64,000 nucleotides of DNA. Origin: an uncultured Ignavibacteriota bacterium (GTDB lineage Bacteria; Bacteroidota; Ignavibacteria; UBA10030; UBA8401). Within the stretch, counting starts at the first letter, position 1. Every line of letters starts with the position of its first letter. Shown piece by piece: positions 3,027 through 60,419 of the stretch. The notes under the pieces are model-generated. The model had not been told where the DNA came from and ran no database searches. It saw only the letters and a program-made list of their open reading frames with translations. The position numbers were made by a program, and so were the translations under genes. Location: contig CAISDA010000017.1 of the NCBI GenBank assembly GCA_903884005.1, forward strand, positions 1 through 64,000, given 5' to 3'.

Positions 3027-3095
3027 GCATGGTCAGTGCACCTGCAGCGCATTTATTTTTACGAAGTAATTCGGTGCTGCAGCATCGGTGCGCAT

Positions 3096-3203
3096 GTAGG
3101 GCAAGATACCATCTCGCCCGGCTATGAAAATAATCGTCGGCATATGTGGTGCGTGTAGGACGAGCTGTTAGCTCGTCCTCTCGCGAGATACCATCTCGCC
3201 CTA
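3096..3203 (+). repeat. dispersed hairpin repeat, family A, copy 1
   Basis: Contains two imperfect hairpins of the type GGGCGAGAT-loop-ATCTCGCCC plus the internal segment GGCATATGTGGTGCGTGTAG followed by GACGAGC. The same internal segment recurs at 39348 onward, where this copy's partner also carries a second module that is missing here. It fills most of the 246-bp gap between the membrane glycosyltransferase and hrpB. No gene is visible in the gap. Confidence 0.8.
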
Positions 3204-3272
3204 CGGGGCAACAAAATTTTTCGGTGGTGTGAAGGCATTTTGGAAATTGAAGGAATGGCCATATATTAATGA

Positions 3273-8407: not shown

Positions 8408-11400
8408 TCATTTCACGAACGTGAACATTTTTTGATCGGTAAAATTATCTGCGCGCAATGTATAGACATATACACCGCTTGACAAACCACCCCCTTCGAA
8501 TACGACGCTGTAGACGCCCGGCGGCCGCTCTTCATTGACAAGATCCGCAACTTTTCTTCCAAGCATATCGAACACGCTGAGAGTGACAACGCTTCGCCGG
8601 GGAACAGCATATCGGATGGTTGTTGCCGGGTTAAACGGATTGGGATAGTTTTGAGAGAGGGAGTATTCCGTGGGCAGCGCATCCATTCCCACGCCGGTAG
8701 TCGTGCTTTTAATCGAAAATGGCACAGTATTCCAATCGGCAGTCGCCATATTAGCCGCGTCAACGATCTTGATCCTGCACTCATCCGATGCCGTATTCGG
8801 TATCAACCATCCATAGGTGTTAAAGGAGGCGGGAATATTTTCTGCGATTTTCTTCCAGGAACTTCCCTTGTCGGTCGATACATAGAGATTGACCGCAGTC
8901 ATATTATTTTTTTGCCATTGAATATTCTGCACCGTGCCGGCTCTCCATAGTTCGCTGCCTTTGGGTGATTTTAGGACAACGCTTTTTGAACCGGGGTCCA
9001 TTGTTTTAAGGATGACGCCCCAATCGCCGACAATAATGGCGCTGGATGGACCTATGAATTTCACACACCGCAATACCGATCTCACTCCGCTTTCCTGCCT
9101 GACCCAGGTTGTTCCTCCGTCGATGGTTTTAGCAATGGCGCCATCGATACCCACGCCGAGGCCGTTGTGTTCATCCAGGTAATCCACACTGTACAGATAT
9201 TCTCCCGTCGGATTATTCTGATTGACCCACGATGTTCCGCCGTTATTTGTTCGAAGGATGTTGCCGGCACCGCCGCATGGGCCATCACCCAAGACTGTTG
9301 CTGTGAGAGGATTTAAAAAACGGACTCCGTTGAGCGATGCCGTCGTACCGCTCGGAATTTTTGTCCAGACGGTTCCTCCATCCGTCGTTTTTACTATTAA
9401 TCCGCCGGTGCCAACAGCGATCCCATTGGTTCGATCGCAAAATTCAACGGCCATCAGACTTTCCCACATTCCACTCAGGCTCCCGGGGTCCTGCACTTTC
9501 CACGTGATCCCACCGTCGGCAGTATGGATGATGACACCCTGTGCCCCTACGGCCCAGCCGTTGGCGTTGTCGACAAAGCACACACTTGTCAATTGCCTGT
9601 TCGTCGGATCATTGAGTTTTGTGAAGCTCACACCGCCGTCGACTGTTTTGTAAATTGTATTGCCGACGATCCATCCTGTATTCATGGTAATGAATGACGC
9701 TCCGCTTACCACAGCATCGTCCGGGAAGTCCAATTTATCGCTCCATGTTCGCCCTCCGTCAGTCGTTTTAAAAAGACCGCCCCCCGAATTATCGCCTTGC
9801 GTGAGAGCCACTCCATTGGTTTCGCTGAACGGTAAATATTTAAAAAATCCCCCATCCCAGTTTGCCATCTGCCTTTCCCAACTGTCCGATTCCTGTGCAG
9901 TGGTGAACACATCATCCTTGCTGTAAAAAATGCCGAGCGTGTTTACCGCCTTAATTCTAAAATGGTACGTCGTGTTGGGCAGCAGTCCGGCTGTTTTTGG
10001 AGATTGAATGAATTTTTCACTATATGTTGGAAGAGAATTAGTGCCGAGTTGATCTATTTCACTTCCATAATAATTCGATGTTCCGTATTCAAACGTGTAT
10101 TTCGACCAACTTCCGTTCTCCTGGACATTCCAATACATCGATGCGCTGTTTTGTGTCAAGCTCCAGGCGCCTCCGTCCCCGCTGAAATCGGGCGGTGACG
10201 CTTTGAATTTTCGCAGCGACAGCTGATACTTACCGTAGGCGTTATAGGCAGCGGCGACCTTACTTCGCAAGGGGTTTGCCTGAAAGGGCACCGTTGTTTT
10301 CGTGCTTAACGCCGATCCCCAATTTTCCCTGTATGCATAGCGTATGTAATACACCCCGGAAACTGGTATCAGCACCGATAATCTGTCGTTAGTCATAAGA
10401 CCGTTATAGATGCCATCCCCGTAGGTAATGAAACCTGCATCGCCAAGAACCTGGATCCTTCCCCAAATGCCGGAATTCATGGCATTGGCAAAAACGTCGA
10501 TCGTGTCGCCGGCGAGCGCAGTGAATTGATAATAATCCGCATCGCCCTCCGGACTAATTTCGCCCTCATATGTTTCTCCCATTGCTATCTGTGTTGCATG
10601 GGCATTATCGTTATTGGGTTCTTGTTCGTATAACTGTCCGGCAGCACTAATGCTGAAATAATTTCTGGACATTGAAAACGCGTGTGCATTTCCCGCATCA
10701 CTGATTCGTATCCTGGCGGTTGTCGTACTTGTCGAAGGGACACTCCATAAATATTGTCCGTTGTAAATATCCGTTTGTCCGGATACCGTTGCGATCTTCT
10801 GCCACGACGCACCATCGAGCATCAGTTCAATGTTGATATCGGAACCAGATGTATTGATCCACGTGATCAGCGTCTGTGAATTCATTTTAAATCGTTCGTT
10901 CCCCACCGGCGAGGTAAGAGCCACAACAAAAGGACCGGATTTCCTGATCGAAAAATAAATGCTGTCCGACACAGGGCCGACATTCGACACATCCAGGCCG
11001 CCAGGCACACCGTCGGATAAGAGCGGCGCAGGGTCGGAATAATCGCTCATTGCTATTCTGCCCGAAGCAGCGCTGAGACTTGCTTTATCCGGTTCGCCGT
11101 TGCCGCTCTGCGTGCCGCCCGGCCGATAGGCATACAATTCATCATCAATGACTCTCGCATTGCCCAGGCCGTCTGAATTTTCATTGACCCTGTAGACAAC
11201 GACGCCTTCCGACGGCAGCGACCGTTCAAAGACACCTTGTTTCTTCCGATACTCCAGAACAAAATATTGCTTACTGGAATTCGGCGACGTGATCTTGAAA
11301 CAATTGTTCGCCGGCGACGTCAGCGGATTCAACGAGTAGGTTCCCGTGCTTTCGATCTCCGGGATCGAGGTAATCCAATGGCCATACCGATACTTCATGT

Positions 11401-12484
11401 ATGCGCTCATATGCTGGGGCGGGTTGCTCGTCGTTTCCATCAGATCCCATCCGCCGACAGGTGTCAGTCCATCGAGTGAATAATGATATAGATCCGGAGC
11501 CCCGATGGAATGAAACATTTCGTGGCACAACACGCCCACACCCAATTCCAACAGATTGAATTCAAGCTGGAAATTATAGGTCGTCACCTTTTTTCCGTTG
11601 ACAACAACATTCTTAGAATCCAACGACCACATATGGGGCCACAAGACACTCCCCCATATATCCGGCGCCCCTTTCACGATGAAGCAGACATTATCGACGT
11701 TGCCATCATGGTCGCCGTCGAGATCCACGGAATTCGGTATCTCGGTTTTTATGGCAGTAATAGCGTTGGCTAACAGGGTATGCTCCCTCTCTGTTTTTTC
11801 TATTCCTGTCGTATAGCCTATGGGATTGGTAATGCTGTACGCATTGTAATAATTCCGCGGGTTACCATCCTTGAACGATGTGATGGAATTATTTTGGGAA
11901 ACAGGGAAAAATGTACTCTTGATGTGCAATTGACCGAACGATGCTTCGTTGTAATAGTTATAGAGAGAATTTGCCGCAGCATCCGTGTTGTTGAACATCG
12001 CATTAAAAATTTCGGCCTTCTCAGTGAATTCATCCTCGTCCGAGAAACGAATATAAATCACGACATTGTTCATCGTCCCTTTTCCCGGAGCGGAAAAAAC
12101 CTGTGTCGTCCCTCCACGTTTTTGCAATTGCGATGTGCTGCCGGACGCCGACTCTATTTTTTTCAGTATCTCCTTCGCATCATCGATCGTCCACTGCTTG
12201 ATGCCCAGCCTATAGGGATCGCTTTTTCCAACGATGCCGCTTGTGGGGACTAGCATTCCATGTATCTGTTCAGCATACACGTAGTACCCGCGTTGGTCCT
12301 GAACGATCGTGAATCCGTCCTTGTCGTGCAGCCAATGATAGTACTCATCTCCGCTTGCGAAACACGCTATTGCCTCTCCGGATGGCTGCTGTATTTTTTG
12401 TGGGACGAATTTGAGCGGAGCAGACTGTGCGATCACGCAAAGCAGCAGCACACATATACTTATTAACATGGGGGAATATTTCAT
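8408..12484 (-). CDS. large secreted M6-family metalloprotease with YCF48/BNR-like repeats and T9SS tail
   Basis: 1358 residues from the ATG at 12484, which has a good ribosome binding site (GGAGG, 4 bases upstream) and opens a signal peptide (MKYSPMLISICVLLLCVIAQS). Domains by eye: M6 (immune inhibitor A-like) protease with zinc motif HEMFHSIGAPDLYHY near residue 320; pre-peptidase C-terminal type domain (EQEPNNDNAHATQI) around 620-740; a fibronectin III-like segment around 760-850; six or seven repeats of the form KTxDGGxTW around 860-1180, as in YCF48/BNR propellers; an Ig-like segment near 1190-1270; and a C-terminal type IX secretion sorting domain with SLSQNYPNPFNPATTIRY. It should be exported by T9SS and act outside the cell. 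A decayed relative lies at 26901-27873. Confidence 0.9.
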   Translation of the reverse strand: MKYSPMLISICVLLLCVIAQSAPLKFVPQKIQQPSGEAIACFASGDEYYHWLHDKDGFTIVQDQRGYYVYAEQIHGMLVPTSGIVGKSDPYRLGIKQWTIDDAKEILKKIESASGSTSQLQKRGGTTQVFSAPGKGTMNNVVIYIRFSDEDEFTEKAEIFNAMFNNTDAAANSLYNYYNEASFGQLHIKSTFFPVSQNNSITSFKDGNPRNYYNAYSITNPIGYTTGIEKTEREHTLLANAITAIKTEIPNSVDLDGDHDGNVDNVCFIVKGAPDIWGSVLWPHMWSLDSKNVVVNGKKVTTYNFQLEFNLLELGVGVLCHEMFHSIGAPDLYHYSLDGLTPVGGWDLMETTSNPPQHMSAYMKYRYGHWITSIPEIESTGTYSLNPLTSPANNCFKITSPNSSKQYFVLEYRKKQGVFERSLPSEGVVVYRVNENSDGLGNARVIDDELYAYRPGGTQSGNGEPDKASLSAASGRIAMSDYSDPAPLLSDGVPGGLDVSNVGPVSDSIYFSIRKSGPFVVALTSPVGNERFKMNSQTLITWINTSGSDINIELMLDGASWQKIATVSGQTDIYNGQYLWSVPSTSTTTARIRISDAGNAHAFSMSRNYFSISAAGQLYEQEPNNDNAHATQIAMGETYEGEISPEGDADYYQFTALAGDTIDVFANAMNSGIWGRIQVLGDAGFITYGDGIYNGLMTNDRLSVLIPVSGVYYIRYAYRENWGSALSTKTTVPFQANPLRSKVAAAYNAYGKYQLSLRKFKASPPDFSGDGGAWSLTQNSASMYWNVQENGSWSKYTFEYGTSNYYGSEIDQLGTNSLPTYSEKFIQSPKTAGLLPNTTYHFRIKAVNTLGIFYSKDDVFTTAQESDSWERQMANWDGGFFKYLPFSETNGVALTQGDNSGGGLFKTTDGGRTWSDKLDFPDDAVVSGASFITMNTGWIVGNTIYKTVDGGVSFTKLNDPTNRQLTSVCFVDNANGWAVGAQGVIIHTADGGITWKVQDPGSLSGMWESLMAVEFCDRTNGIAVGTGGLIVKTTDGGTVWTKIPSGTTASLNGVRFLNPLTATVLGDGPCGGAGNILRTNNGGTSWVNQNNPTGEYLYSVDYLDEHNGLGVGIDGAIAKTIDGGTTWVRQESGVRSVLRCVKFIGPSSAIIVGDWGVILKTMDPGSKSVVLKSPKGSELWRAGTVQNIQWQKNNMTAVNLYVSTDKGSSWKKIAENIPASFNTYGWLIPNTASDECRIKIVDAANMATADWNTVPFSIKSTTTGVGMDALPTEYSLSQNYPNPFNPATTIRYAVPRRSVVTLSVFDMLGRKVADLVNEERPPGVYSVVFEGGGLSSGVYVYTLRADNFTDQKMFTFVK

Positions 12485-12763
12485 GGAGCCTCCGATACAA
12501 TGTTCCGGATCATCACGCCGGAAATCGAATGCACGATACGGCGAGATCATGAACCGACGTCCGATACGATAACAGTCACAGGTATGAATGCTGAGACTGC
12601 TCCAGAGAGGGTAAAACATGGGCATAGTAGACCCGCATGGGAATACATCCGGCAATCCCGGACACGAACATCTTATGCACAAATAATGCCATTTTTGAAA
12701 AATATAGCATGCATTTTTACTAATGATTTTACCGTTCCAAAGGCAAGGGAACAAAATCGGCAA

Positions 12764-17853: not shown

Positions 17854-17885
17854 AAAAGTTACAATCGTCCTGCATTGCTCATATA

Positions 17886-18003
17886 TAACTTGCACCGCTT
17901 CGCTCGAGCGGGCGAGATGACATCTCGCCCTACAATGCTGCGTCTGCGAAACTCGTATGTTCATGCGGGGTGGTGAACCCCACATTCATGAACGCCACAC
18001 ACG
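17886..18003 (+). repeat. dispersed hairpin repeat, family A, copy 2
   Basis: Full copy: AACTTGCACC start, hairpin GGGCGAGATGACATCTCGCC(C) at 17910-17930, then the second module TACAATGCTGCGTCTGCGAA onward with the hairpin GGGGTGGTGAACCCC, ending in CATTCATGAACGCCACAC. Separates the methyltransferase (upstream) from the GT4 gene. Confidence 0.85.
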
Positions 18004-18017
18004 CTTGATAGCAGGTG

Positions 18018-26738: not shown

Positions 26739-26900
26739 TACTCGTATTTTCCATTCATACAGTGCATCAATCCTTCATTGGTACTCTGAAACGAAAATGC
26801 CCGCCGTACAAGTGGTGGGCAGTCTCCGGTTTATAAAGATACGAGAATCCTGACTGAAGTGCAATAATGCAAACAAGAGCGTGCCAATATGGCAATCCTT

Positions 26901-27873
26901 TCAGAAAATGCCGATCCACTCGATCCCCCGCGTGATATCTTTTTCCATCCCCACCTTGACGATCTGCCGGATGGATTCCATGCCGAAATACTCCTCCCCC
27001 GCCGTATCCGTCCTTGCGGTTCAGATCGTAATCCTGATATGCAATGGCGATGGAATTCGGAAAGACAACGTTCCCCGGCCACGTTGTGTGGCGATTAAAA
27101 GAACCTATCTCCGTCAGCGAAGGAGCACCGTAAGCGGCGAGACACAGTGCTTTTTGTGTGAAGCTCACAAGGCCATTGATTCCCACATAGAGAGAGTCAT
27201 ATTTTTGTCCGTAGAATGTAAATCCAAATCCCAACGGGATCGGTGTGTTGGCATAGCCGTCGTCGAGGGTTGCTTCAGGAGAGGCCGTTGCGTTTACCCA
27301 GTTTTTGATCTCCGTGCCTGTCTTCGCAATATCGATCCAGTCGAATGGCACTTTCGATGCGGTATATTCATTTTTTATTGCTTCAGTCGACGTCAAGATA
27401 GTGACATCAAATTTTATCGAGTCGCCGGCTGCCGATCCGATATTGCTGATACTCAGTCCTCCAGCCGTGCCGTCCGTCCGAAAACTCGAAGGATTCGTCA
27501 CATCGCTGATCGCTGTTCTCTTCGCTTCACTACTGTAGAAAGCGGAATAGTAATCACCATTGTCTGTCACTGTCCCGCCGGGACGGTAGACATATTCTTC
27601 ATCAGGCGGACCGTACGCATTCCCCGGCACCTTTTCATTGATGCGGTACACAAGCAGCCCGCTTCCGGGAAGACTCGATTCATACAATCCGGTTTTTTTT
27701 CGGAATTCAACCAGAAACCATTCCCTTCCTCCTTTGGGAGAGGCGATCTTATACATTGTATTTCTTGACGACGTTGAAACATCCCGAGGAATACCCGTTG
27801 AAGTTTGAATAGCTTCCGTTGTCATGCCGCCAAGGCCGCCGCACGGCGCGGCGAAAGGAAGTCCGCTCTCATG
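26901..27873 (-). pseudogene. decayed M6-family metalloprotease, N-terminus missing and frameshifted
   Basis: The segment MYKIASPKGGREWFLVEFRK onward aligns with the post-catalytic part of the M6 protease at 8408-12484 (CFKITSPNSSKQYFVLEYRK), including VYRINEK and EEYVYRPGG. The protease core with its HExxH motif is absent upstream, where the frame closes at a stop near 27874. Downstream, a GGGGG run (complement of 26996-27000) shifts the frame: as written the reading passes into nonsense, but removing one G restores GYGGEEYFGMESIRQIVKVG and then GIEWIGIF with a stop at 26901. So there are at least two lesions. The single base could be a sequencing error or a phase-variable tract; the missing N-terminus argues for decay. 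Confidence 0.8.
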
Positions 27874-28636: not shown

Positions 28637-28809
28637 AAATCGGGTCACTTTTATTTCTCCACAAGCATCTTTCCGATATCCCAATCCACGGAAATCATTT
28701 CGGCATTGGCGGAAAGAATCGCTTTTGTTTGCGCTTGCCGTATTCGCTGCTTAATGGCGGTCAGCAACGTAGTGTAAAAGTCAGTTCCCTCATGTCCCAA
28801 CTCCTTCAA

Positions 28810-29174
28810 TTATCGTAATAGCAGCATGTTTTGTGTTTTAGTGAAGGACCGCGCGGGGCTTTCGAATGACTGCGCGTGAATATGCAGAAAATACAATGCC
28901 GAGGCAACGTGCGCATCCCAGACCGTTGAATGGCGTCCGGCTTCTTGGACCTCATCGTGAATCACCGCAACCCGCTGTCCCAGTGTGTTGAAGACTTCAA
29001 GTCTGACATTCGAGCGAACCGGCAGCGTGTATTGAATGGTCGTTGACGGATTAAAGGGATTCGGATAATTCTGCTCCATCGCAAAATCCGACGGAAGAGC
29101 CGAACCGTCCCGGATGCGGACGTCCGTCTCGGCGCTCAGTGTGAATCGGATCGCATCGGCGCGGAGCACAAGAT
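28810..29174 (-). pseudogene. orphan T9SS C-terminal sorting domain (duplicated gene tail)
   Basis: Encodes about 120 residues nearly the same as the end of the protein at 30747-33482 (shared SAETDV-IRDGSALPSDFAM and EQNYPNPFNPSTTIQY). I count about 19 differences over about 118 residues. Upstream the similarity breaks off abruptly at about 29174, with an in-frame TAA just before, and there is no signal peptide. So this is a fragment left by duplication, not a gene. Similarity continues a few bases past the stop (CTCCTTCAATTATCGTAATA in both copies). Confidence 0.85.
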
Positions 29175-29300
29175 TCTGTTAGTCGGAACAGTTTCGCAAC
29201 GATTTGACCGAAGATGCTTGATTCCGTTGTCGCCGAAATGTATATTTGCTGATCTGTGTAAAAAAAAATTTGGCCTGGGAAATCCATTCAAAAAACGAAG

Positions 29301-30560
29301 ATGATGGTTTGTGTTTCTGCATATGAAATAGTGCCGGATGGGGAAATATTTCCTCCGGTAGACTGTTCGTCACGGACTATTTCGAACGACCCTCAGGGAC
29401 GGGGTGTTCGGCCTTCTGTTGCCCCCACGCAGCGGCCGGAGAACCGGCGCAGGCGCGCCGGGAAACACGTTTTTTTTCTCAGAGGTGCGATCTTTTTTCT
29501 GATGCTGCTCTCTGCAGTCCGGGTCGACGCCGGGAACGATGCTTATTATTTTTATCGTGACTATTCGTACGGGTCCGAAAGCCTGTACAATCCGATATCG
29601 CTGCTGGTCAACGGGGGATTCGATACGTTCCAGATGTTCGATCGGCAGCCGACATGGCAGAACATGTATTGGGATCGTGCGGCGAGCAACGTGTGGAGGT
29701 GCATTGCGTCTCCGATGCCGATCATCAACAGTTTCGGATGGAATCGGTTTGTCAACCAGGAATTGTTCCCGACCCATCTTGATGTCAACGAAAGCCAGTA
29801 TGTCCCGAATTATATGCTGCACCTTGTCGGCGGGGGAATGGAATACAGAAAGATTACGGAATGGTATAGTGCGCATAGCTTTCCCGCTCCGGCTTTCTGC
29901 GGCATGGTGACGGCGATGTCGTTCGAATATTTGAACGAGGTTGCGGAGAATGGGCCGGATTATTATCCCAACGAAGACTGTATTCCGGATCTTCTCATTT
30001 TTCAACCGCTCGGTATTCTCCTGTTCAGCATCAACGATGTCGCGGATTTTTTTTCCACAACACTCAGCTTGAATGATTGGTCCAATCCGGTGGCAGTTTC
30101 CTTTGCGCCGTTTGCCGTCCGCAATGCAGGTCAGTGTTTCGTATTGAAGCTTCCCCTGAACAAATCGCATTCGGTGAGTGCGTTTTCCGTGTTCGGTTCG
30201 TTCGGGATGGTGGGGTTGTCCTTGAAGATGAATGAAGAGGATGCCGTTTCTTTCGGCGGCGGATTGACGTCCACGGGACGTGTCGACTTGCCGCCCGAAC
30301 ACGGCGTTCACTCGAACACGATTGTCATGGGTCCGATGGCGGGAATTTATTATGATCGAAACAATTCGCTGCTTGCGTCTGTTACATACTCTGCCGCTGC
30401 AAATAACATGCTGCGTATCCACGTTTTTCCAGGCCTGCTGTCGAGCGGTGTGTTTTCTCCGGGCATGTTTCTCTCATTTTCGAACGTCGGAGCCGCCACC
30501 ATGGGAATTGTTATGAATGTTCTTCCGGTCGGATTCAGCGGCTTTTCCCCGCATTTGTGA
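29301..30560 (+). CDS. hypothetical secreted protein
   Basis: 419 residues as read. I do not recognise the family. A hydrophobic stretch FFLRGAIFFLMLLSAVRVDA at residues 58-77 looks like a signal peptide, so the true start may be inside; no alternative ATG or GTG with a ribosome binding site is obvious. The mature part is rich in Tyr, Phe, Gly, Asn and Ser, with alternating patterns near the end (VSFGGGLTST, MGPMAGIYYDRNNSLLASVT), suggesting an outer membrane or surface beta-protein. The part around SFEYLNEVAENG..DLLIFQPLGILLF faintly recalls DUF3943-type outer membrane proteins. The gene is bracketed by two direct copies of a T9SS tail sequence. Confidence 0.55.
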   Translation: MMVCVSAYEIVPDGEIFPPVDCSSRTISNDPQGRGVRPSVAPTQRPENRRRRAGKHVFFLRGAIFFLMLLSAVRVDAGNDAYYFYRDYSYGSESLYNPISLLVNGGFDTFQMFDRQPTWQNMYWDRAASNVWRCIASPMPIINSFGWNRFVNQELFPTHLDVNESQYVPNYMLHLVGGGMEYRKITEWYSAHSFPAPAFCGMVTAMSFEYLNEVAENGPDYYPNEDCIPDLLIFQPLGILLFSINDVADFFSTTLSLNDWSNPVAVSFAPFAVRNAGQCFVLKLPLNKSHSVSAFSVFGSFGMVGLSLKMNEEDAVSFGGGLTSTGRVDLPPEHGVHSNTIVMGPMAGIYYDRNNSLLASVTYSAAANNMLRIHVFPGLLSSGVFSPGMFLSFSNVGAATMGIVMNVLPVGFSGFSPHL

Positions 30561-30746
30561 TGGGTAATTTGATCATCATGGCACCGAAATACGGCCTTTG
30601 TCGGAGTGGATTATCGGCTGGTGTCGCGCAATCTTTTTAGGCAGAAAAATACACATACCTTTCTGCGGCACCAAAACCAAGCATTTATCCGAATATCCGT
30701 CAGTAACCAATATGGTTCTTCGTTGACCAAGCGCCAACTCCTTCAA

Positions 30747-33482
30747 TTATCGTAATAGCAGCATTTTTTGTGTTTTGGTAAAGGTCCGCGCGGGGCTTTC
30801 GAATGACTGTGCGTGTATCTGCAGGAAATACAGTCCAGAGGGGACCCTGGCATTCCACACGGCCGCGTAGCGGCCCGCCTCGGCAATTCCCTCATGGAGC
30901 AGCGCAACGCGCTGTCCCAGTGTGTTGAACACCTCAAGCCTCACTGTTGAGCGAACCGGCAGCGCGTATTGAATGGTCGTGGACGGATTAAAGGGATTCG
31001 GATAATTTTGCTCCATCGCAAAATCGGACGGAAGAGCCGAGCCGTCCCGGATGTGGACGTCCGTCTCAGCGCTCAGCGTGAATCGGATCGCATCGGCGCG
31101 GAGCACAAGATTTGCAGTCGTCACAACGCTTGCATCGTTGATGGCGATCTCCACCGGCACGCGTGCAGGAACTGTCCGCCTGAACAACACGGCCCACGCG
31201 CCGCTGCCCGCATTCTGATCGACAAAAAGGGAGTCCGTTATTGTTCCGTTGACCTTGAGCACATAGCGCGCCCGCGTCGATGCATTCACCGTCTTCGGAA
31301 TATATCCCAGTATATCGTACGTGCCGCTTTTGGCGAGCTGCTTCGTGAAGCGTGCAAGAGCGGACGTGCCGATCGGGGCAAACCGGCTCATTGTTCCGAA
31401 GCAGTCCGTTGCGACGCTCTTCGACCATGCGCCCGTTTCCACATACACCGAAGGGTCGTCGTTGTCGGCCACGGTGAAATACGAAATGACATTTGCGGTG
31501 AACGGAATCTTCAGCGCGGACAGGAGCGGATCGTTATTCGTCACGCGGATCGTATCGGCGAACGCGCCTTTGACCGGCGAAAAAAATCTCAGGGGAACAG
31601 TCACCGTCGACATCGGCTGTATCTCTATCCCGGATGCTCTCGGGAAGGAGAGCGACGCAGAGGACGCGCTGATGCCGAAGATCGTCAGCGGAGCAATGCC
31701 GTTGTTCATGAGCGTGATCTCGGCTTTCGCAGTATCCATTTCGGACACACTTCCAATGTCAGCGTACGGCAGCTTTGCGGCAATGGCGCGCTCGCGCACG
31801 AGCGCCGATATTTTCAGGACGTCGGATGCGGCAATGCGCCCGGCCTGGCCCGTGCCGTTGACGATGCGGTCCACGGTGACGACCGTGCCGGCAGCGAGGC
31901 ACTGGGTTCCGATGAGCACCCATGCATTCGATGCGATCACGCCCGGAAACCGCTGCTCGCTCAGTACCGCGTCTCCCGATCTGATTCTGAAGACCGAGTT
32001 GAGGGCCGCATTCGTGTATGATGGAATCTGTATGAAGAAATTATAATATCCCGTGCGGGTGATGGAATGCGACCATGTGCTCCAGACCGAATCGTTGTCC
32101 GCGAGCACCGCCTGGCGCGCATCGATGCCCCATGCGGCATTCGACGTCGTCGTCCATGCGCCGCGCAACTCCTTGTACGTGCCGTCCCGGTTGTCGATGA
32201 ACGCGTCATCCGGCAGATACTTCAGGCTCGCGGTGGACAGGTTGCCCATCGTATCGGTCACGGCCGCGGCAACTTTCACGATGCCGGAGGCGGGCATGGT
32301 GCTCAGCGCCTTCCAGGTGTTCGTGCCCGTTTTCGTGCATTGCAGCACGCTCGCACGCTCATACACGTCTTTCATGGCCACGAAGGGTTGCTGCTGAAAA
32401 ATAGGTTCGCTCGATTGGATGGTGTAACTGACATTCTCCCCCTGGCGCTCCTCGGTGAGCGAGAGCACCGGCGCAACAGAATCGACGCCGTGTCTCCAGC
32501 GCTGCATCGCTTCAACCGCCGAGCAGTAGCGGAATGTCACGCCTGTAAATTTTTTTTCCGTACTATGCGCAAGCGAATCGATCTTTCTGAGGTTGTCCAG
32601 AAAATCGACTTCGGGCAGATGTCCCCAGAGGCATGCAACCTGGTCCGTGCCCTTGGCCGCTTCCGAAAAAATGTCGTTCATCGAAGCGGCAGTGACGTTG
32701 CCGATGTGCGTCGATCGGAGATTCCATCCCCCTGTGCCTCCCGGAAGCTGATAGTTCGCGGCGGACGGGCGGAACGGGGCCCAGAGTTTTGATGAGAGGG
32801 ACCAGTCGAAATTGTTGTCGATCGGCTCGTTGGTGACGAAGCGCTTGGCCGGATAATCGTCGTCCATGGAATAGGGCAGCAGCGCGTCGAGATACTGCTG
32901 CCAGCCGTTGTCCATATAATGCCATCCGCTGCGAAACGAGACGGGATAACAATTTTCTTCGAGGAGGTACTGCGCCATCGTCACATCGAAGTCGTCGCGG
33001 CATTCGGAAAAACTGTGCGATTGATTCCAGAAGTATTTTCCATCCTGATTGTAGTCGGTCCATGCGAAGGTATGGTAATGCAGCGAAAGCTCGTCGCCGT
33101 ATTGCGCGATCCGGTCGCCGTGATATTTTTTCATCAGATAGAGCGTCATGGTGTTCGCGACGGGCACATTCGTATTGTCTGCATAGCGGAAGATATTTCC
33201 CGCCATCATCCACCACGTCAGCTTCATGGGCGTGCCGTACGAGTCGACGAGCCGCGTGCGGAATGCTGGGTCCATGACTGCGTATGCGTTGAGCGCGGGA
33301 TCGATATACAGAGCGAGCGTGTAATGGGGATCGTGCCTGGCCACATCCATCCCGTCCCATAGCGCCGTATCCGACCCGAGCACAAGATATATTTTGCCTG
33401 CGGCACATAGAGGAAGCGACAAGAGCAGGAGACACGCGGAAACAGTCACAGCAACTACAAGAGGTTTGACGATTGCATTCAT
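30747..33482 (-). CDS. T9SS-exported multidomain protein, putative polysaccharide deacetylase-like or carbohydrate-active enzyme
   Basis: 911 residues from the ATG at 33482 (NAIVKPLVVAVTVSACLLLL signal peptide); upstream in-frame codons lack signal features. N-terminal catalytic-looking domain of about 400 residues with GDELSLHYHTFAWTDYNQDG and GWHYMDNGWQQYLDALLPYS, resembling beta/alpha-barrel deacetylase or glycoside hydrolase folds; the HYHT pair could hold a metal. Then a golvesin/xanthan-lyase-like beta-domain (about 425-560), a choice-of-anchor-D-like domain (about 580-690, GIEIQPMSTVTVPLRF), a second golvesin-like domain (about 700-815, VADNDDPSVYVETGAWSK) and a T9SS sorting domain (FAMEQNYPNPFNPSTTIQY). 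Exported across the outer membrane. The substrate is unknown. Confidence 0.75.
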   Translation of the reverse strand: MNAIVKPLVVAVTVSACLLLLSLPLCAAGKIYLVLGSDTALWDGMDVARHDPHYTLALYIDPALNAYAVMDPAFRTRLVDSYGTPMKLTWWMMAGNIFRYADNTNVPVANTMTLYLMKKYHGDRIAQYGDELSLHYHTFAWTDYNQDGKYFWNQSHSFSECRDDFDVTMAQYLLEENCYPVSFRSGWHYMDNGWQQYLDALLPYSMDDDYPAKRFVTNEPIDNNFDWSLSSKLWAPFRPSAANYQLPGGTGGWNLRSTHIGNVTAASMNDIFSEAAKGTDQVACLWGHLPEVDFLDNLRKIDSLAHSTEKKFTGVTFRYCSAVEAMQRWRHGVDSVAPVLSLTEERQGENVSYTIQSSEPIFQQQPFVAMKDVYERASVLQCTKTGTNTWKALSTMPASGIVKVAAAVTDTMGNLSTASLKYLPDDAFIDNRDGTYKELRGAWTTTSNAAWGIDARQAVLADNDSVWSTWSHSITRTGYYNFFIQIPSYTNAALNSVFRIRSGDAVLSEQRFPGVIASNAWVLIGTQCLAAGTVVTVDRIVNGTGQAGRIAASDVLKISALVRERAIAAKLPYADIGSVSEMDTAKAEITLMNNGIAPLTIFGISASSASLSFPRASGIEIQPMSTVTVPLRFFSPVKGAFADTIRVTNNDPLLSALKIPFTANVISYFTVADNDDPSVYVETGAWSKSVATDCFGTMSRFAPIGTSALARFTKQLAKSGTYDILGYIPKTVNASTRARYVLKVNGTITDSLFVDQNAGSGAWAVLFRRTVPARVPVEIAINDASVVTTANLVLRADAIRFTLSAETDVHIRDGSALPSDFAMEQNYPNPFNPSTTIQYALPVRSTVRLEVFNTLGQRVALLHEGIAEAGRYAAVWNARVPSGLYFLQIHAQSFESPARTFTKTQKMLLLR

Positions 33483-36671: not shown

Positions 36672-37095
36672 GTGAGTCCTGTATCATTTCAAAAATATAC
36701 ATGCTCCGTAACGACTTACCACGCGTAACTCCCCGGTAGCTCACAAAAACTTGCACCTCGCACGCGGTGCGGGCGAGATACCATCTCGCCCTACAATGCT
36801 GCGTTTGCGAAACTGGTATTTTCATGCGGGGTGGTGAACCCCACATTCACGCACGCTACACGCGCACCAATGCAACGACAGAGAGTCACTTCGAGAATAA
36901 CGTGCGTTGCATGCACAAACAACGCGTGGCAACGGCGTGTAAAAAATACGAAACTTTCATCCATGGTTCAAATGATTTGACATTTCGAAAAAATTCTCCT
37001 ACTGTCAATGTGGGCCGCCGCCCGCGCAGAACGCCGATCGGCACACTCAGACCGGCCGCACATCACACGCCACACCATTTGGAGACCGACACAGT
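36672..37095. other. gene-free stretch between hutI and the DUF2461 gene
   Basis: 424 bases between two divergently read genes. It contains repeat A copy 4 (36748-36862). The remainder shows no ORF I support, and no tRNA or riboswitch that I can recognise. Promoters for both flanking genes must lie here. Confidence 0.6.
36748..36862 (+). repeat. dispersed hairpin repeat, family A, copy 4
   Basis: Full copy: AACTTGCACCTCGCACGCGG start, perfect hairpin GGGCGAGATACCATCTCGCC(C) with 9-base arms at 36771-36791, then TACAATGCTGCGTTTGCGAA, the GGGGTGGTGAACCCC hairpin and the end CATTCACGCACGCTACAC. Near identical to copy 2. Confidence 0.85.
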
Positions 37096-39295: not shown

Positions 39296-39547
39296 ACGTG
39301 CAGGGCAAAATGTCGTTTCGCCCTGCTATAAAAATACTCGGCGGCATATGTGGTGCGTGTAGGACGAACTGTTACCTCGTCCTCTCGCGAGATACCATCC
39401 CGCCCTACAATGCTGCGTCTGTGAAACGGGTATGTTCATACGGGGTAGTGAACCCACATTCATGAACGCTGCTATGAAAAAATGGCAAATATGGCGCAAA
39501 TATGCCGTTTTCATGCGGGCGTTGGCCCCATATTCGTGAACGCTGCA
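39296..39547 (+). repeat. dispersed hairpin repeat, family A, copy 5 (longest)
   Basis: Holds every module seen elsewhere: AGGGCAAAATGTCGTTTCGC(CCT), CGGCGGCATATGTGGTGCGT segment, GACGAACTGTTACCTCGTC hairpin, GGGATGGTATCTC-type hairpin, TACAATGCTGCGTCTGTGAA module with GGGGTAGTGAACCC, and an extra half module to GAACGCTGCAG. It fills most of the 400-bp gene-free gap between the barrel gene and the Nudix gene. Confidence 0.8.
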
Positions 39548-40320: not shown

Positions 40321-41601
40321 ATGGCGCGATATAAACTCTATCTTGAATACGAAGGCACACGCTTCAGCGGGTGGCAGATTCAAAAAAATGCCCGTACGGT
40401 GCAGGGCGAAATTCACAACGCACTGGTGACGATGCTCAAGAGCGCGGATTTTGAATTGTACGGATCGGGGCGGACCGATGCGGGTGTTCACGCTCTCTAT
40501 CAGGTGGCGCATCTGGAAGCCGAGACGATGCTCGGCCCGGAGATCATTCGCATGAAGCTCAACGACGCCCTGCCGGCGGATATCAATATCATCGAAGTAG
40601 AGAAAGCGCACGCGAATTTTCATGCGCGCCACGACGCCGTCGCCCGCAGTTACATGTACCAGATCTCGCGCCGCCGCACGGCCTTCGGCAAACGCTTTGT
40701 GTGGTGGATCAAGGATGAGCTGAATTTTTCGCAAATGGCGCGCGCGGCCGCCCTCTTCGAAGGGATGAAGAACTTTCAGTCGTTCACCGCCGATGACGAA
40801 GAGGAAAAGTCGATGAAGGTGCTCGTTGAGGGCATCGAAATAAAAGAAGCGGGCGACCTGATCCTCATACGCATCGTCGGCTCTCATTTTTTATGGAAGA
40901 TGGTCCGCCAGATCGTGGGCGTGATGGCCGAAGTGGGCAGGGGAAAAATGGCGCTGAAGGAGATCGAACGCATGCTTCAGGAAAAATCGAACGCCGCCGC
41001 TCCGTTGACCGCCCCGCCCTCGGGACTGTTCCTCGAGCGTGTCTATTACAAAGGCGACGCAAGGCTTGCACTGTTTGAGCCGATGATGACCGTCGACCAG
41101 CCTCGCACATTTCACACACCGGAGCGCAGCAGCACGCACTCCCACTCGCACACGGCAGTGTCGGCGACCGGAGAGACGGCAACCGGCGCACATGCCGGTA
41201 CTCATACGCACGCAGCACCGCCGTCGCACAAGTACAAGACGACCGGCGGACATGCGGACAAACATGTGCACGGCGGTTCGGTGCACGGCGGTTCGGTGCC
41301 CGGCACGCGTCCGGGAACGTTCGGCGGCAAACACAAAAAAAGCGGCGCCCCTACTGATGCCGCCGGGCACCACAGCAAGAATGAGGACAAGCGTCTGGCG
41401 GCGCTCGAACGCCGAAAGGTGAAAAGCGCCGCGCCACTGGATACATACGCGGACAGCACCAAGAGCGCCGGCACACCGGCAGGCATGTTCGAGCACGGGG
41501 CAAAAAAAATTGGGACACAGACGGATTCAGCGAAGCATCACGGGAAGAATAAGGACAGGCGCCGCTCACCGGCTCCCGGTCACAAACGGCGCCCCTTATA
41601 A
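40321..41601 (+). CDS. truA: tRNA pseudouridine synthase A with a long His-rich C-terminal tail
   Basis: TruA makes pseudouridine at positions 38-40 of tRNA anticodon arms. 426 residues from the ATG at 40321 ([20 protein letters not shown]); an ATG at 40300 is also possible. The core is normal: [20 protein letters not shown] with catalytic Asp53, [24 protein letters not shown] and the end [19 protein letters not shown] near residue 250. Family proteins stop about here (245-270). This one continues for about 175 residues that are hydrophilic, rich in His (about 19), Gly, Thr and Lys, with a duplicated segment ([18 protein letters not shown] and [18 protein letters not shown]). It is 17 bases upstream of hutU. 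Confidence 0.95.
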
Positions 41602-41618
41602 CCAACCATACGACTATC

Positions 41619-43265
41619 ATGAAACCCATACGCGCATATCGCGGAAACACGCTGCACTGCAAAGGCTGGCTCCAGGAAGCGGCCCTGCGCATGCTGATGA
41701 ACAATCTCGATCCGGATGTGGCAGAGCGGCCGGACGAGTTGATCGTCTACGGCGGCACAGGAAAAGCGGCTCGCAACTGGGAATGTTACAGCGCGATCGT
41801 GAAGAGCCTGACGAGGCTTGAGAACGACGAAACGCTCCTCGTTCAATCGGGCAAACCTGTGGGCATATTCCGCACGCACGAAAATGCGCCGCGGGTGCTC
41901 ATCAGCAATTCGATGCTGGTGCCGAAGTGGGCGACATGGGACGAATTTCGGAGGCTCGAAGGACTCGGGTTGACAATGTACGGGCAGATGACCGCGGGCT
42001 CCTGGATCTATATCGGCTCGCAAGGAATACTGCAGGGCACGTTCGAAACATTTGCCGAATGCGCACGGAAACATTTCGGCGGATCGCTTGCTGGACGCTT
42101 TCTGCTCACCGCCGGTCTCGGGGGCATGGGAGGCGCTCAGCCCCTTGCTGCAACAATGAACGGGGCGGCATGTCTCGTCGTCGAAGTCGACCGCACGCGG
42201 ATCGAGAAACGCATTGCCACGCGCTATCTGGATGTGATGACCGACGATTTCACTGAAGCCATGACCTTGATCCGTTCGGCGCAGGAGAAGCGCCAGATGT
42301 TGTCTGTGGGCCTCTGCGCGAACGCTGCCGAGATCATTCCACGCATCGCCGCCGGCAACTATCTGCCGGACATCGCAACAGACCAGACGTCCGCGCACGA
42401 CACGCTCAACGGCTATGTGCCGGCGGGGATGACATTCGAACAGGCGCTTGCGCTCAGGAAAAAAAACCCGAAAAAATATATCACCGCCTCCCAGCTCTCC
42501 ATTGCCGCTCACGTGAAGGGATTGCTCAAGCTGCAGAAACGCGGCTCCGTGGTGTTCGATTACGGCAATAATATTCGCGGCGAGGCCGCCGCCAACGGCG
42601 TGAAGCACGCGTTCGATGTTCCGGGCTTCGTGCCCGAATATATACGGCCGCTCTTCTGCGACGGCAAAGGCCCGTTCCGGTGGGTCGCACTCTCGGGCGA
42701 TCCACAGGACATTCTGCGCACCGACCGCGCCGTGCTCGAAACATTCCCGGACAACGACTTGTTGTGCCGGTGGATAGAGAAGGCGCAGAAGCAAGTGGCG
42801 TTCCAGGGATTGCCTGCGCGTATCTGCTGGCTCGGATACGGCGAGCGGGCGCTGATGGGAAAAATTTTCAACGATCTTGTTGCGCGCGGCGAGGTCAGCG
42901 CGCCGATCGTCATCGGCCGCGATCATCTCGATTGCGGAAGCGTCGCATCTCCGAACCGCGAGACCGAAGCGATGAAAGACGGCAGCGATGCCATCGCCGA
43001 CTGGCCCATTCTCAATGCACTGCTCAACACCGCGGGCGGGGCCACATGGGTGAGCGTGCATCATGGCGGCGGAGTGGGCATCGGCAATTCCCTGCATGCG
43101 GGCATGGTGGTCGTTGCCGATGGAACAACCGACGCCGCCGTTCGGCTCGAACGCGTGCTGACGTACGATCCGGGCATGGGAATCGTGCGCCATGCGGATG
43201 CCGGATACGAACGTGCGAAGAAGAATGCAAAAAAATTCTCCGTGAACATTCCGATGTTGAAGTAA
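41619..43265 (+). CDS. hutU: urocanate hydratase
   Basis: 548 residues, exact family length. Clear family sequence: [40 protein letters not shown], the NAD-binding loop [20 protein letters not shown], the conserved [26 protein letters not shown] and [20 protein letters not shown]. Converts urocanate to imidazolonepropionate with tightly bound NAD, step two of histidine degradation. Lies in a rightward run truA-hutU-panE-S9 peptidase-GNAT with small gaps, while the other hut genes face the other way about 5 kb to the left. Confidence 0.97.
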
Positions 43266-48700: not shown

Positions 48701-51556
48701 TCATTTTTTCTTCCCCTTGCTTTTTTTCGCTTTTTTCGGGGGAATCTTGCCGTGCTTCGGCGCCGTCCCGGAAGATTTCGGTGCAGCCGTTTTTTTCGCG
48801 GCGGACTTCTTTTTCACCGGAGCCGTTGTGGACTTTGGCGTTGTATTCTTCCGTGTCGTTGCCTTGGACGAAGATGTTTTTTTCTTATGAATGGTGATCG
48901 AGGCCGGTTCCTGTTTCTTCTTCCCGGCCTTGACCGCCGCTGGTGCGGCGGCGGCGCTCTTGGTTGTCACAGGTTCATGCCCTGCATCACCCGAAAAACG
49001 GCTCATCGGTCTCGTCTTCAATTTTTTTTTTACGTCTTCGTCCGCTTCAAACAGAGAGTTCTTATCGGGATCCGTTTTGGGCTGAGATGGGACCGGAGAT
49101 CCGTTTTCATTCAGTTCTTTTTCTTCATCCTCCTCTGATTTGACGATCGCGATGGCGGCAATATGGTCCGCTTCGTGGAGCCTGATCAAGCGCACGCCCG
49201 AGGTATTGCGTCCGCTGACGCGGATCTCGCTTGCGTGCTGGCGGATCACCATGCCCTGCGTCGTCACCACGACGATGTCGTCGCTGTCCTGCACTTCCTT
49301 GATCGCGATCATTTTTCCCGTCTTGTCCGTTGCGCGCAGCGTGCCGATGCCCTTGCCGCCGCGATGGCTCACCCTGTACGCGCCGAGATCGGACCGTTTG
49401 CCGAATCCATTCTCGGTGGCAACAAGGATTGTGGTTTTCGGACGGCGCACCGCAACGGCGCCGATCACCTTGTCGCCGTTTTCCAGTCTGATGGCGCGCA
49501 CGCCGGCGGCGCCGCGGCCCATGCTCCGGACCTCGCCTTCGGGGAAGCGGATGGCGACGCCCTCGTGCGTTCCGATGAGGATCTCGTTCGTTCCGTCGGT
49601 CAGTTTCACATCCACCAGAAGGTCTGTGCCGTCGAGCGAAATGGCGCCGATGCCCGCCTTGCGGGGGTTCGAAAATTCCGAGAGCGCCGTCTTTTTCATC
49701 TGCCCCTGTTGGGTGACCATAAACACGTAGTGCGTATCATCGAATTCTTTCACGCTGAGGAATGCCGAAATATTTTCCGACGCGTCCTTCTGGATGAGAT
49801 TGACGATGGCACGGCCTTTCGATGCGCGTCCGCCTTCGGGCAATTCGAACACCTTCACCCAGTAGCATTTGCCTTTGTCGGTGAAGAAGAGAATGTAGTT
49901 ATGCGTGCTCGCGATGAACATGTGCTCCACGAAGTCGTCTTCGCGCGACGCGGCACCCGTGATGCCCCTGCCGCCGCGGGTCTGCCGGCGGTAGCCGCTC
50001 ACCGGGAACCGTTTGATGTAGCCGCTGTGGCTGATCGTGATGACGACATCCTCTTCGGCGATCATGTCTTCGATCTTGAATTCTTCGAAGTCGTAGACGA
50101 TCTCGGTGCGGCGTTCATCGCCGTATTTGTCCCTGATGGCCAGCAGTTCGTCCTTGATGATCTCCATCTGCAGCTGTTTGCTTGCGAGGATCGCCTTGAG
50201 TTTGGTGATGAGCTTAATGAGGTCGCGGTATTCTTCTTCGATCTTCTTGCGTTCCAGGCCGGTGAGGCGCTGGAGGCGCATATCGAGGATCGCCTTCGCC
50301 TGGATCTCGGACAGCTTGAATCGTTTCATCAAGCCATACTTCGCCGTTTCGGTATCGCGCGATGCCTTGATGAGCTTGATGATCTCGTCGATGTTGTCCA
50401 GCGCAATGATATAGCCTTCGAGAATGTGCGCGCGCGCTTCGGCCGCGTCGAGCTCGAATTTCGTCCGGCGGACGACGACCTCGTTGCGGTGCGCAAGATA
50501 ATGCTCCAGTATGTCGCGGAGCGTCAGCACCTTCGGGCGGCCGTCCACGAGCGCCAGGAGGATCACGCCGAAGGTGGTCTGCATCTGCGTGTACTTGTAC
50601 AGATTGTTGAGCACCACGCCGGCGTTGGCGTCGCGTTTCAGGTCGATCACAATGCGCATGCCGTCGCGATCGGATTCGTCCCGAAGATCGGCAATGTCCT
50701 CGATCTTCTTCTCGCGCATCAGTTCGGCGATCTTTTCGATCAGGCTTGCCTTGTTGACCTGGTACGGAATTTCGTTGACAATAATGCTTTGTCGGTCGTT
50801 CTTCGACGTTTCAATGTTCGCCTTGGCGCGGAGCGTGATCTTGCCGCGCCCGGTCGTGTATGCCTCTTTCACGCCTTCGTAGCCGTAGATGATGGCTCCG
50901 GTCGGGAAATCCGGCGCCTTGATGTGCTTCATCAATTTCACATTATCGATCTCGGGCGTTTTGATCATCGCGATGCATCCGTCGATCACTTCCACCATGT
51001 TGTGGGGCGGAATGTTCGTCGTCATGCCGACGGCGATGCCGCTCGAGCCATTGACCAACAGATTCGGATACGCCGACGGCAGCACCGAAGGCTCGGTGAG
51101 CGTATCGTCGAAGTTCGGCGTAAAGTCCACGGTGTTCTTATCCAGGTCGCGCAGCATTTCTTCGGCCAGGCGCGTCATGCGGATTTCCGTGTAACGCATA
51201 GCGGCGGCGGAGTCGCCGTCGACCGATCCGAAGTTGCCCTGTCCGTCGACCAGCGGATAACGCAGCGAGAACTCCTGCGCCATGCGAACCGCCGTGTCGT
51301 AGACCGATTGATCGCCGTGGGGATGATACTTGCCAAGCACTTCGCCGACAAGGCGGGCGCTTTTTTTATACGAGCGGTTCGGCAAAAGGCCCAGTCCCTG
51401 CATGCCAAAGAGCACCCGGCGATGAACGGGTTTGAGGCCGTCGCGCACATCGGGAAGCGCGCGCGACACGATCACTGACATCGAATAATCGATGTACGAT
51501 CCCTTCATTTCATCTTCGATGTCGACCGGTATAATTTTTTCGTTCAATGTTGCCAT
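48701..51556 (-). CDS. gyrA: DNA gyrase subunit A with a basic low-complexity tail
   Basis: 951 residues. The breakage-reunion domain is normal: [40 protein letters not shown], and the active Tyr in [14 protein letters not shown]. The C-terminal beta-pinwheel carries the GyrA box as [13 protein letters not shown], which supports gyrase rather than topoisomerase IV. After about residue 820 comes a tail of about 130 residues made of Lys, Ala, Ser, Thr and Pro ([20 protein letters not shown] near the end), similar in composition to histone H1 or bacterial AlgP/Hc1 tails. Acidic tails are usual in E. coli GyrA, so this basic tail is unlike that. Makes negative supercoils together with GyrB, encoded just upstream. 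Confidence 0.97.
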
Positions 51557-59382: not shown

Positions 59383-60285
59383 ATGAAAATTTTTGTTGTT
59401 GCAGTGCTTCTACTCGCAGCCGCGGCCGTGCACGCCCAGCCAATGACGCAGCGGTACGCCTCGTACGGGGACGTTATTGTCACACATTTGTCCACCTCAA
59501 TGTTTCCCCACCCGCTGCGGGCGAACGGCCACGTGTATTCCGGTCAAACCTACTCCGCTGCCGAGCATTACAGCGACAGCACCGTTGCGATGTTTGTGCC
59601 CAAAGGGTATCGGCCGTCGCGCACAGTCGATCTGGTCGTGTATGTCCACGGCTGGGGAAACAATATCGACAGCGCGCTTCGGCGCTTTAACGTGATAGAG
59701 CAGTTCTGTGCGAGCCGCAGGAACGCGATCGTCGTCATGGCTGAAGGGCCGCACGACGCGCCGGATTCGTTCGGCGGCAAGCTGGAGGAGAAGGATGGCT
59801 TCAAGAGGCTTATCGCCGATGTCCTGGCCGTACTTAAAAAAGAAAAGAAGATCACCGCTCAGGCCTCTGTCGGAAACATCATCATCGCCGGGCACAGCGG
59901 CGCGTACCACGTGATGTCGTTCATTCTTCTGCGGGGAGGATTGACCGATCACATGAAGGAAGTCTATCTCTTCGACGCGCTCTACGGAGAGACGGAAAAA
60001 TTCGCGTACTGGATAGACCATTACCGGGGCCGTATGGTGAATATCTACACGGATTCGGGCGGAACGAAGGGTGAGAGCGAAAACCTGATGGCGTGCCTGG
60101 AGAGCTGGAAAATTCCCTTCATAGCCAGGGAGGAGAGCCGAACGACACCCGATGAGCTGCGCCGCAACAGACTCATCTTCCTGCATTCGGACCTGAAGCA
60201 CAACGATGTGTTCGCCAAGCGCGGCCAGTTTGCGGAATATCTAAGGACGAGTTCGCTCGCGGAGATAAAAAAAAGGGCGGGATAA
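59383..60285 (+). CDS. secreted alpha/beta-hydrolase-like protein
   Basis: 300 residues with a signal peptide (MKIFVVAVLLLAAAAVHAQ) and a good GGAGA ribosome binding site. The alpha/beta hydrolase fold is indicated by DLVVYVHGWGNNIDSALRRF (oxyanion-loop His-Gly) and the nucleophile elbow IIIAGHSGAYHVMSF (GHSGA, Ser near residue 172). Then come VYLFDALYGETEKFAYWIDH and a late His in FLHSDLKHNDVF. Probably an esterase or peptidase of the cell envelope; substrate unknown. Odd point: the last three codons and the stop TAA (60283-60285) lie inside dispersed repeat A copy 6, so the original C-terminus has been replaced or trimmed. Confidence 0.75.
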   Translation: MKIFVVAVLLLAAAAVHAQPMTQRYASYGDVIVTHLSTSMFPHPLRANGHVYSGQTYSAAEHYSDSTVAMFVPKGYRPSRTVDLVVYVHGWGNNIDSALRRFNVIEQFCASRRNAIVVMAEGPHDAPDSFGGKLEEKDGFKRLIADVLAVLKKEKKITAQASVGNIIIAGHSGAYHVMSFILLRGGLTDHMKEVYLFDALYGETEKFAYWIDHYRGRMVNIYTDSGGTKGESENLMACLESWKIPFIAREESRTTPDELRRNRLIFLHSDLKHNDVFAKRGQFAEYLRTSSLAEIKKRAG

Positions 60286-60366
60286 CATCTCGCCCTACAA
60301 TGATGCGTCTGCGAAACTGGTATTTTCATGCGGGCTAGTGAACCCCACATTCATGCACTCTACAAG
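60275..60366 (+). repeat. dispersed hairpin repeat, family A, copy 6
   Basis: Hairpin GGGCGGGATAACATCTCGCC(C) (60275-60295), then TACAATGATGCGTCTGCGAA, CTGGTATTTTCATGCGGG and CTAGTGAACCCCACATTCAT, ending near GCACTCTACAAG. It overlaps the end of the hydrolase gene and supplies its stop codon. Confidence 0.85.
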
Positions 60367-60419
60367 GCACCGATGCGACACCAGGAGCATGAGTTACTCG
60401 GAAGTTACGGGTGAAACAC

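Follow-up and report, generated by a model that had tools for sequence, protein, structure and literature searches.

The analysis of the window, that is, the whole stretch of 64,000 nucleotides under study, revealed a truA gene in which the reading frame continues for about 180 residues beyond the end of the enzyme core. This tail is very probably translated and partly constrained, as judged from its sequence: one block within it is identical in a sister species at high silent divergence, and its proximal part shows an excess of synonymous differences. By analogy with other RNA enzymes, a function as an arm for RNA binding or docking is plausible.

The second TruA paralogue

Enzymes of the TruA family form pseudouridine at positions U38–U40 of tRNA and act as homodimers. 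Two TruA genes are present in the genome, and their products are 37% identical to each other. The window gene encodes the second of them, a point that goes beyond the earlier note; the name TruA2 is given here to this second paralogue group. Its features are listed in Table 1. The MARYK start agrees with the starts of the orthologues. Pfam analysis placed PF01416 (PseudoU_synth_1) in two stretches of the core (E 2.4e-34, 118.5 bits against a cut-off of 23.3), and phmmer matched residues 2–244 to the TruA structures 1vs3, 1dj0 and 2nqp. Residues R51, T52, D53, R109, Y111 and Y113, which belong to the RTDAGVH and RxYxY motifs, are invariant across 44 TruA2 orthologues. The motif that ends the core was found at about residue 245, and translation showed the frame to be open from there on to position 41601. 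The core had earlier been described as complete and ending near residue 250, which these data confirm.

TruA2 thus resembles the tRNA pseudouridine(38-40) synthase TruA (PF01416; 1dj0, 2nqp, 2nr0, 1vs3) in its complete core and its RTDAG catalytic motif, and the similarity runs the whole length of residues 2–244. It differs from an ordinary TruA in being a second paralogue beside TruA1, in its SHFLWKMVR subfamily signature and in its long tail, which is predicted to be disordered. The TruA1 of the same genome (contig C83) has NRFLHGMVR in place of this signature and stops right after its own core. The identity of the window protein to TruA2 orthologues is 65–91%, as against 37% to TruA1.

TruA2 was detected at E≤1e-50 in 207 of 391 genomes of the class, and 21 of the 22 genomes checked had both TruA1 and TruA2. 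In the window's own family TruA2 was present in just three genomes out of 22. Relatives are recorded under Ignavibacteria, other Bacteroidota, Acidobacteria and delta-proteobacteria. On sequence comparison, the window gene is orthologous to the second TruA, the one found beside TruA1 in Ignavibacteria and Bacteroidota. Our literature search found no study on what this second paralogue modifies; a widespread second TruA of Ignavibacteria and other Bacteroidota, with an apparently unstudied substrate, is hereby brought to attention.

One long frame of a relative (G218, contig C20, L203) was considered as a tailed TruA2 and rejected. It consists of a TruA2 core, truncated at residue 200, whose frame runs on into a lipoprotein signal-peptidase-like protein, with no tail. 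Either a deletion has fused the two, or the join arose in assembly.

Table 1. Positions of truA2, of the parts of its product and of the adjoining gene in the window
Feature	Residues	Position	Strand	Remarks
truA2 CDS	1–426	40321..41601	+	426 aa plus stop codon; the genome's second TruA paralogue
TruA catalytic core	1–245	40321..41055	+	Two PF01416 units, catalytic Asp53, SHFLWKMVR signature
Proximal tail	246–269	41056..41127	+	Where the subfamily normally ends; C-termini of most orthologues lie close by
His-rich linker (ends ...HKY)	270–305	41128..41235	+	Sequence not conserved; sister species has NAAAAEPVSQPLRQPAAQ... here
Conserved microdomain	306–315	41236..41265	+	Identical in sister species
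15-bp tandem repeat (VHGGS)		41266..41304	+	2.6 copies; absent in sister species
Duplication, copy 1	328–358	41302..41394	+	Sister species has no second copy
Sole predicted tail helix	354–365	41380..41415	+	AF2, low confidence, pLDDT ~55
Duplication, copy 2	384–414	41470..41562	+	Counterpart of the single PFEHTKKKKDRR segment of the sister species
Conserved basic C-terminal end	408–426	41542..41598	+	Sister species ends KKKDRRKNTGTGFKRRP
hutU (urocanate hydratase)		41619..43265	+	17 nt downstream of truA2; also follows truA2 in the sister species, not in G002

Composition and repeats of the tail

The 176 residues 251–426 include 19 His (10.8%), 28 Lys or Arg, 14 Asp or Glu and 21 Gly, whereas hydrophobic and aromatic residues together number 21; the net charge is +14. 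These counts agree with the earlier description of a hydrophilic tail of about 175 residues with about 19 His. Measured from the GL(F/Y)LE core motif, the tail has 183 residues. Histidines occur in clusters (HSHSH, HTHAA, GGHADKH, HHSK and HHGK), Cys is absent, and the hydrophobic fraction of the C-terminus is 0.10. A Pfam search with the tail alone gave no match to a known domain. AlphaFold2, run with 44 aligned orthologues, gave pLDDT values mostly above 90 for the core and mostly below 50 for residues 281–421, and the tail is predicted on this model to be intrinsically disordered.

Two segments of the tail had been noticed as duplicates. The duplication was confirmed and exceeds the earlier description: it covers 31 residues with a BLOSUM score of 79, which was reached in none of 1000 shuffles (maximum 71).

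Codon usage, a weakly informative test, was weakly coding-like for the whole tail (z 3.3, as compared with 3.5–8.6 for the middle 90% of gene windows and an antisense median of 2.1). For the second half alone (residues 331–426) z is 1.7, no more than a weak coding signal.

Tail length and charge in TruA2 orthologues

More than 100 TruA2 orthologues, a count in which some species stand under two identifiers, were read to the stop. They end 0–56 residues after GL(F/Y)LExxxY, typically 15–25, so the 183-residue tail is exceptional; the earlier statement that such a tail is not normal for TruA proteins is true of the TruA2 subfamily. Ending soon after GL(F/Y)LE is a usual property of TruA and not a defining one, and the window protein departs from it. 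Orthologues with at least 25 residues after the motif have hydrophilic ends. All 18 extended tails that were tabulated, those of the window and of the sister species included, are net positive (+1 to +16). The tail of one orthologue (L069/G389) is rich in His and Arg and contains KDRR: HRHRPPHKPERQKPHGRTTEKDRRPPHK.

A search for tail homologues elsewhere in the class yielded, beyond the window itself, weak matches only (E 0.001–0.008), and the match in the sister genome G001 covered just the proximal 21 residues. A literature search on TruA tails found nothing relevant.

Comparison with the sister species

G001 is the one other genome of the genus that was compared. Its truA2 is still in frame where contig C15 (public as JAVBYH010000409.1) ends. 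A search with hutU located contig C279. The start of this contig overlaps exactly over 35 bp, and from there the truA2 frame stays open up to a stop about 38 nt upstream of hutU. Given this overlap and the continuous frame, the joined sister protein has 348 residues, 105 of them in a tail that lies in the same frame as that of the window. The conservation described below refers to this one pairwise comparison, with the sister gene joined across two abutting contigs of a draft genome.

The cores of the two genes are diverged near saturation at silent sites (dS 1.38, dN 0.053), with 51% of fourfold sites different. The proximal tail aligns without gaps, and its 24 codons show 10 synonymous and 6 nonsynonymous differences. 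Unguided alignment of the two tail DNAs was unreliable in the middle, and for this reason a protein-guided comparison was used. Block 306–315 has four synonymous and no nonsynonymous differences. An identical run of at least 10 residues anywhere in the tail occurred in none of 5000 neutral simulations; the block tested had been seen beforehand to be identical, although the simulation counted any such run in the tail. The basic KDRR...KRRP end is common to both tails. The shared frame, block and basic end date the tail back beyond a single species and show it to be partly constrained. In these two species, residues 306–315 and KDRR...KRRP stand out as conserved microdomains from otherwise variable sequence.

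Conservation does not extend to most of the tail. The sister tail (net charge +9) contains 6 His as compared with 19, and Ala, Gln and Pro stand where the window has the HSHSH/HTH region. The duplication, the VHGGS repeat and most of the His residues are absent from it, and are therefore either additions in the window lineage or losses in the other.

Basic C-termini in the genome

The C-termini were ranked in a sample of 1.52 Mb, a third of the 4.5-Mb genome, in which 1069 genes were called with a simple codon-based caller. TruA2 had the highest His density of these 1069 genes (12 in a 60-residue window). When the last 100 residues of 798 proteins were ranked by hydrophobic content, TruA2 was the second most hydrophilic. 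The first three were GyrA (net charge +26), TruA2 (+14) and a DEAD-box helicase (+11); sixth came another DEAD-box helicase, with a Pro/Arg/Gly-rich end and a net charge of +3. Over the same 798 proteins the median net charge of the last 100 residues was 0 and the 95th percentile +6. Enzyme names in this ranking were judged by reading the sequences, that of GyrA being confirmed by Pfam. By its rank beside GyrA and DEAD-box helicases, the TruA2 tail keeps company with extensions of nucleic-acid enzymes. The basic or RGG-type tails of the helicases and the Lys-rich tail of GyrA are, like that of TruA2, hydrophilic, mostly positive, of low complexity and attached to an enzyme acting on nucleic acid. 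As compared with the GyrA tail, that of TruA2 is less charged and is rich in His and Gly.

Possible function of the tail

The reading that we regard as rather probable is that TruA2 carries a genuine disordered basic arm of about 180 residues, acting like the tails of RNase E and DEAD-box helicases in RNA binding or docking. Such an arm would hold RNA through weak, multivalent electrostatic contacts made by Lys, Arg and, at lower pH, His, and would in this way raise the local concentration of the enzyme at tRNA or ribosomes. The two conserved microdomains may serve as short sites at which RNA or a protein docks, and the His/Gly-rich parts may be a spacer grown by slippage and duplication. In the two species compared, the arm evolves fast through indels and duplication and retains the two short motifs. 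A role related to nucleic acids is favoured by the net positive charge of all 18 extended tails and by the finding that gyrase and a DEAD-box helicase bear the other C-termini of this genome sample that are hydrophilic and strongly basic. It should be kept in mind that the net charge per residue, with +14 to +16 spread over about 170 residues, is modest beside that of the GyrA tail.

A close likeness is to the noncatalytic region of RNase E in gamma-Proteobacteria (PMC4435900), which also forms the disordered C-terminus of an RNA enzyme and has biased composition, repeats, variable length and short conserved microdomains. Tandem repeats in the disordered region of RNase E have been proposed as the raw material of microdomains, and the length of the region varies by expansion and deletion (PMC4435900). 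The TruA2 tail is far shorter and unrelated in sequence, and the enzyme is unrelated too. The human TruA-family enzyme hPus1 likewise has extra sequence beyond its TruA core, on the C-terminal side as in TruA2. This is an extension of about 35 residues whose packed helices block dimerisation (PMC3983220), whereas the TruA2 tail is basic, His-rich and predicted to be disordered.

It is also possible, although we think it unlikely, that the tail is a near-neutral extension. The ancestral stop near residue 270 would have been lost, the spacer would have become coding and been lengthened by slippage and duplication, and the product would be tolerated as soluble and disordered while having no job. 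The erratic length across the order (0–56 residues, then 105 and 183) is consistent with this, as are the tandem and dispersed duplications, the poor alignment of the tails beyond the two motifs and the weak codon bias of the second half. Against it, about 79 codons of the tail have stayed in frame through large indels, at a dS of about 1.4, and the ten-residue block with synonymous changes only is accompanied by a common basic end. The suggestion of a recent low-complexity expansion is right for about half of the length, since the duplication, the VHGGS repeat and most His are not shared with the sister species; for the rest, where frame and motifs are kept, it does not hold.

Less probable still is a tail that serves protein docking, in which the motifs would recruit TruA2 to the ribosome, a helicase or a degradosome-like assembly without direct RNA binding. 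The microdomains of RNase E show this pattern of short conserved motifs within disordered sequence that varies (PMC4435900), but the two motifs were not found in other TruA2 orthologues. Improbable to a slightly higher degree is a redirection of TruA2 by the tail motifs from tRNA U38-40 towards a different RNA or location (rRNA, mRNA, the ribosome or an RNA-rich condensate). If this were true, the long-standing second TruA paralogue would have a distinct job conferred by its tail.

Metal binding or storage by the His-rich tail is very unlikely. The 19 clustered His and the top His density in the sample would suit it, but the clusters are not conserved; the absence of HSHSH and HTH from the sister tail weakens this explanation. 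The tail moreover has no Cys, and the adjoining genes, hutU and that of a NUDIX hydrolase, include no obvious metal gene. Of the earlier proposals, binding of metal, RNA or ribosomes or a recent expansion, metal binding has thus lost ground, and a nucleic-acid role is favoured by charge and company.

Hardly credible is a stretch rich in His codons that senses His-tRNA or histidine supply and controls hutU in the manner of a leader peptide: His-rich coding sequence does lie directly 5′ of hutU in the window, and a shorter tail precedes hutU in the sister species, but the sister's His codons are few and scattered, relatives' hutU has no His-rich frame before it where this could be read, and between tail and hutU there was no terminator-like site and no RNA family above threshold (Rfam). 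Promoter, terminator and Rfam scans around the tail gave nothing beyond chance. An assembly error or frameshift carrying the gene into noncoding DNA, with which the different GC content by codon position in tail and core would agree, is refuted by the genome of a different species, G001, in which the same frame runs to the same end before the same downstream gene; the check proposed earlier for a frameshift or for absence of the tail in relatives has therefore come out in favour of a real tail.

The preferred reading, a disordered basic arm, would make TruA2 a natural case of the growth of such an arm on an RNA-modifying enzyme, with a short ancestral end, a tail of 105 residues in one species and, in its relative, one of 183 with duplication and repeats, two motifs being retained. 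Disordered basic tails on RNA enzymes are already known as a kind, and no new kind of system is revealed.

Other features of the window and genome

The product of gyrA in the window (48701–51556, − strand) ends in a low-complexity, Lys-rich stretch of about 110 residues; no other hydrophilic C-terminus in the 1.52-Mb sample is as basic. In relatives the open frame of GyrA varies between 839 and 1037 aa. Elsewhere in the same genome (L268:14577-19832) a protein of 1751 aa has tandem HDAANTQ heptapeptide repeats in its C-terminal part.

Several repeats were observed. An interspersed intergenic repeat of about 90–135 bp is present in four copies in the window, at 36739–36873, 17877–18004, 39387–39470 and 60275–60376 on the + strand, and in about 40 copies, mostly of 82–96% identity, genome-wide; it may be a family of the REP or MITE kind. 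Another short repeat, dispersed and 110 bp long (3095–3204 and 39299–39408), has 88% identity. A direct repeat of 382 bp with 86% identity (28797–29175 and 30734–31112) lies on either side of the gene at 29301–30560. Finally, the fragment-like frame at 26767–27825 (− strand) is, as judged by eye, related to the M6-peptidase-like protein encoded at 8408–12763 and is possibly a decayed or truncated copy of it.
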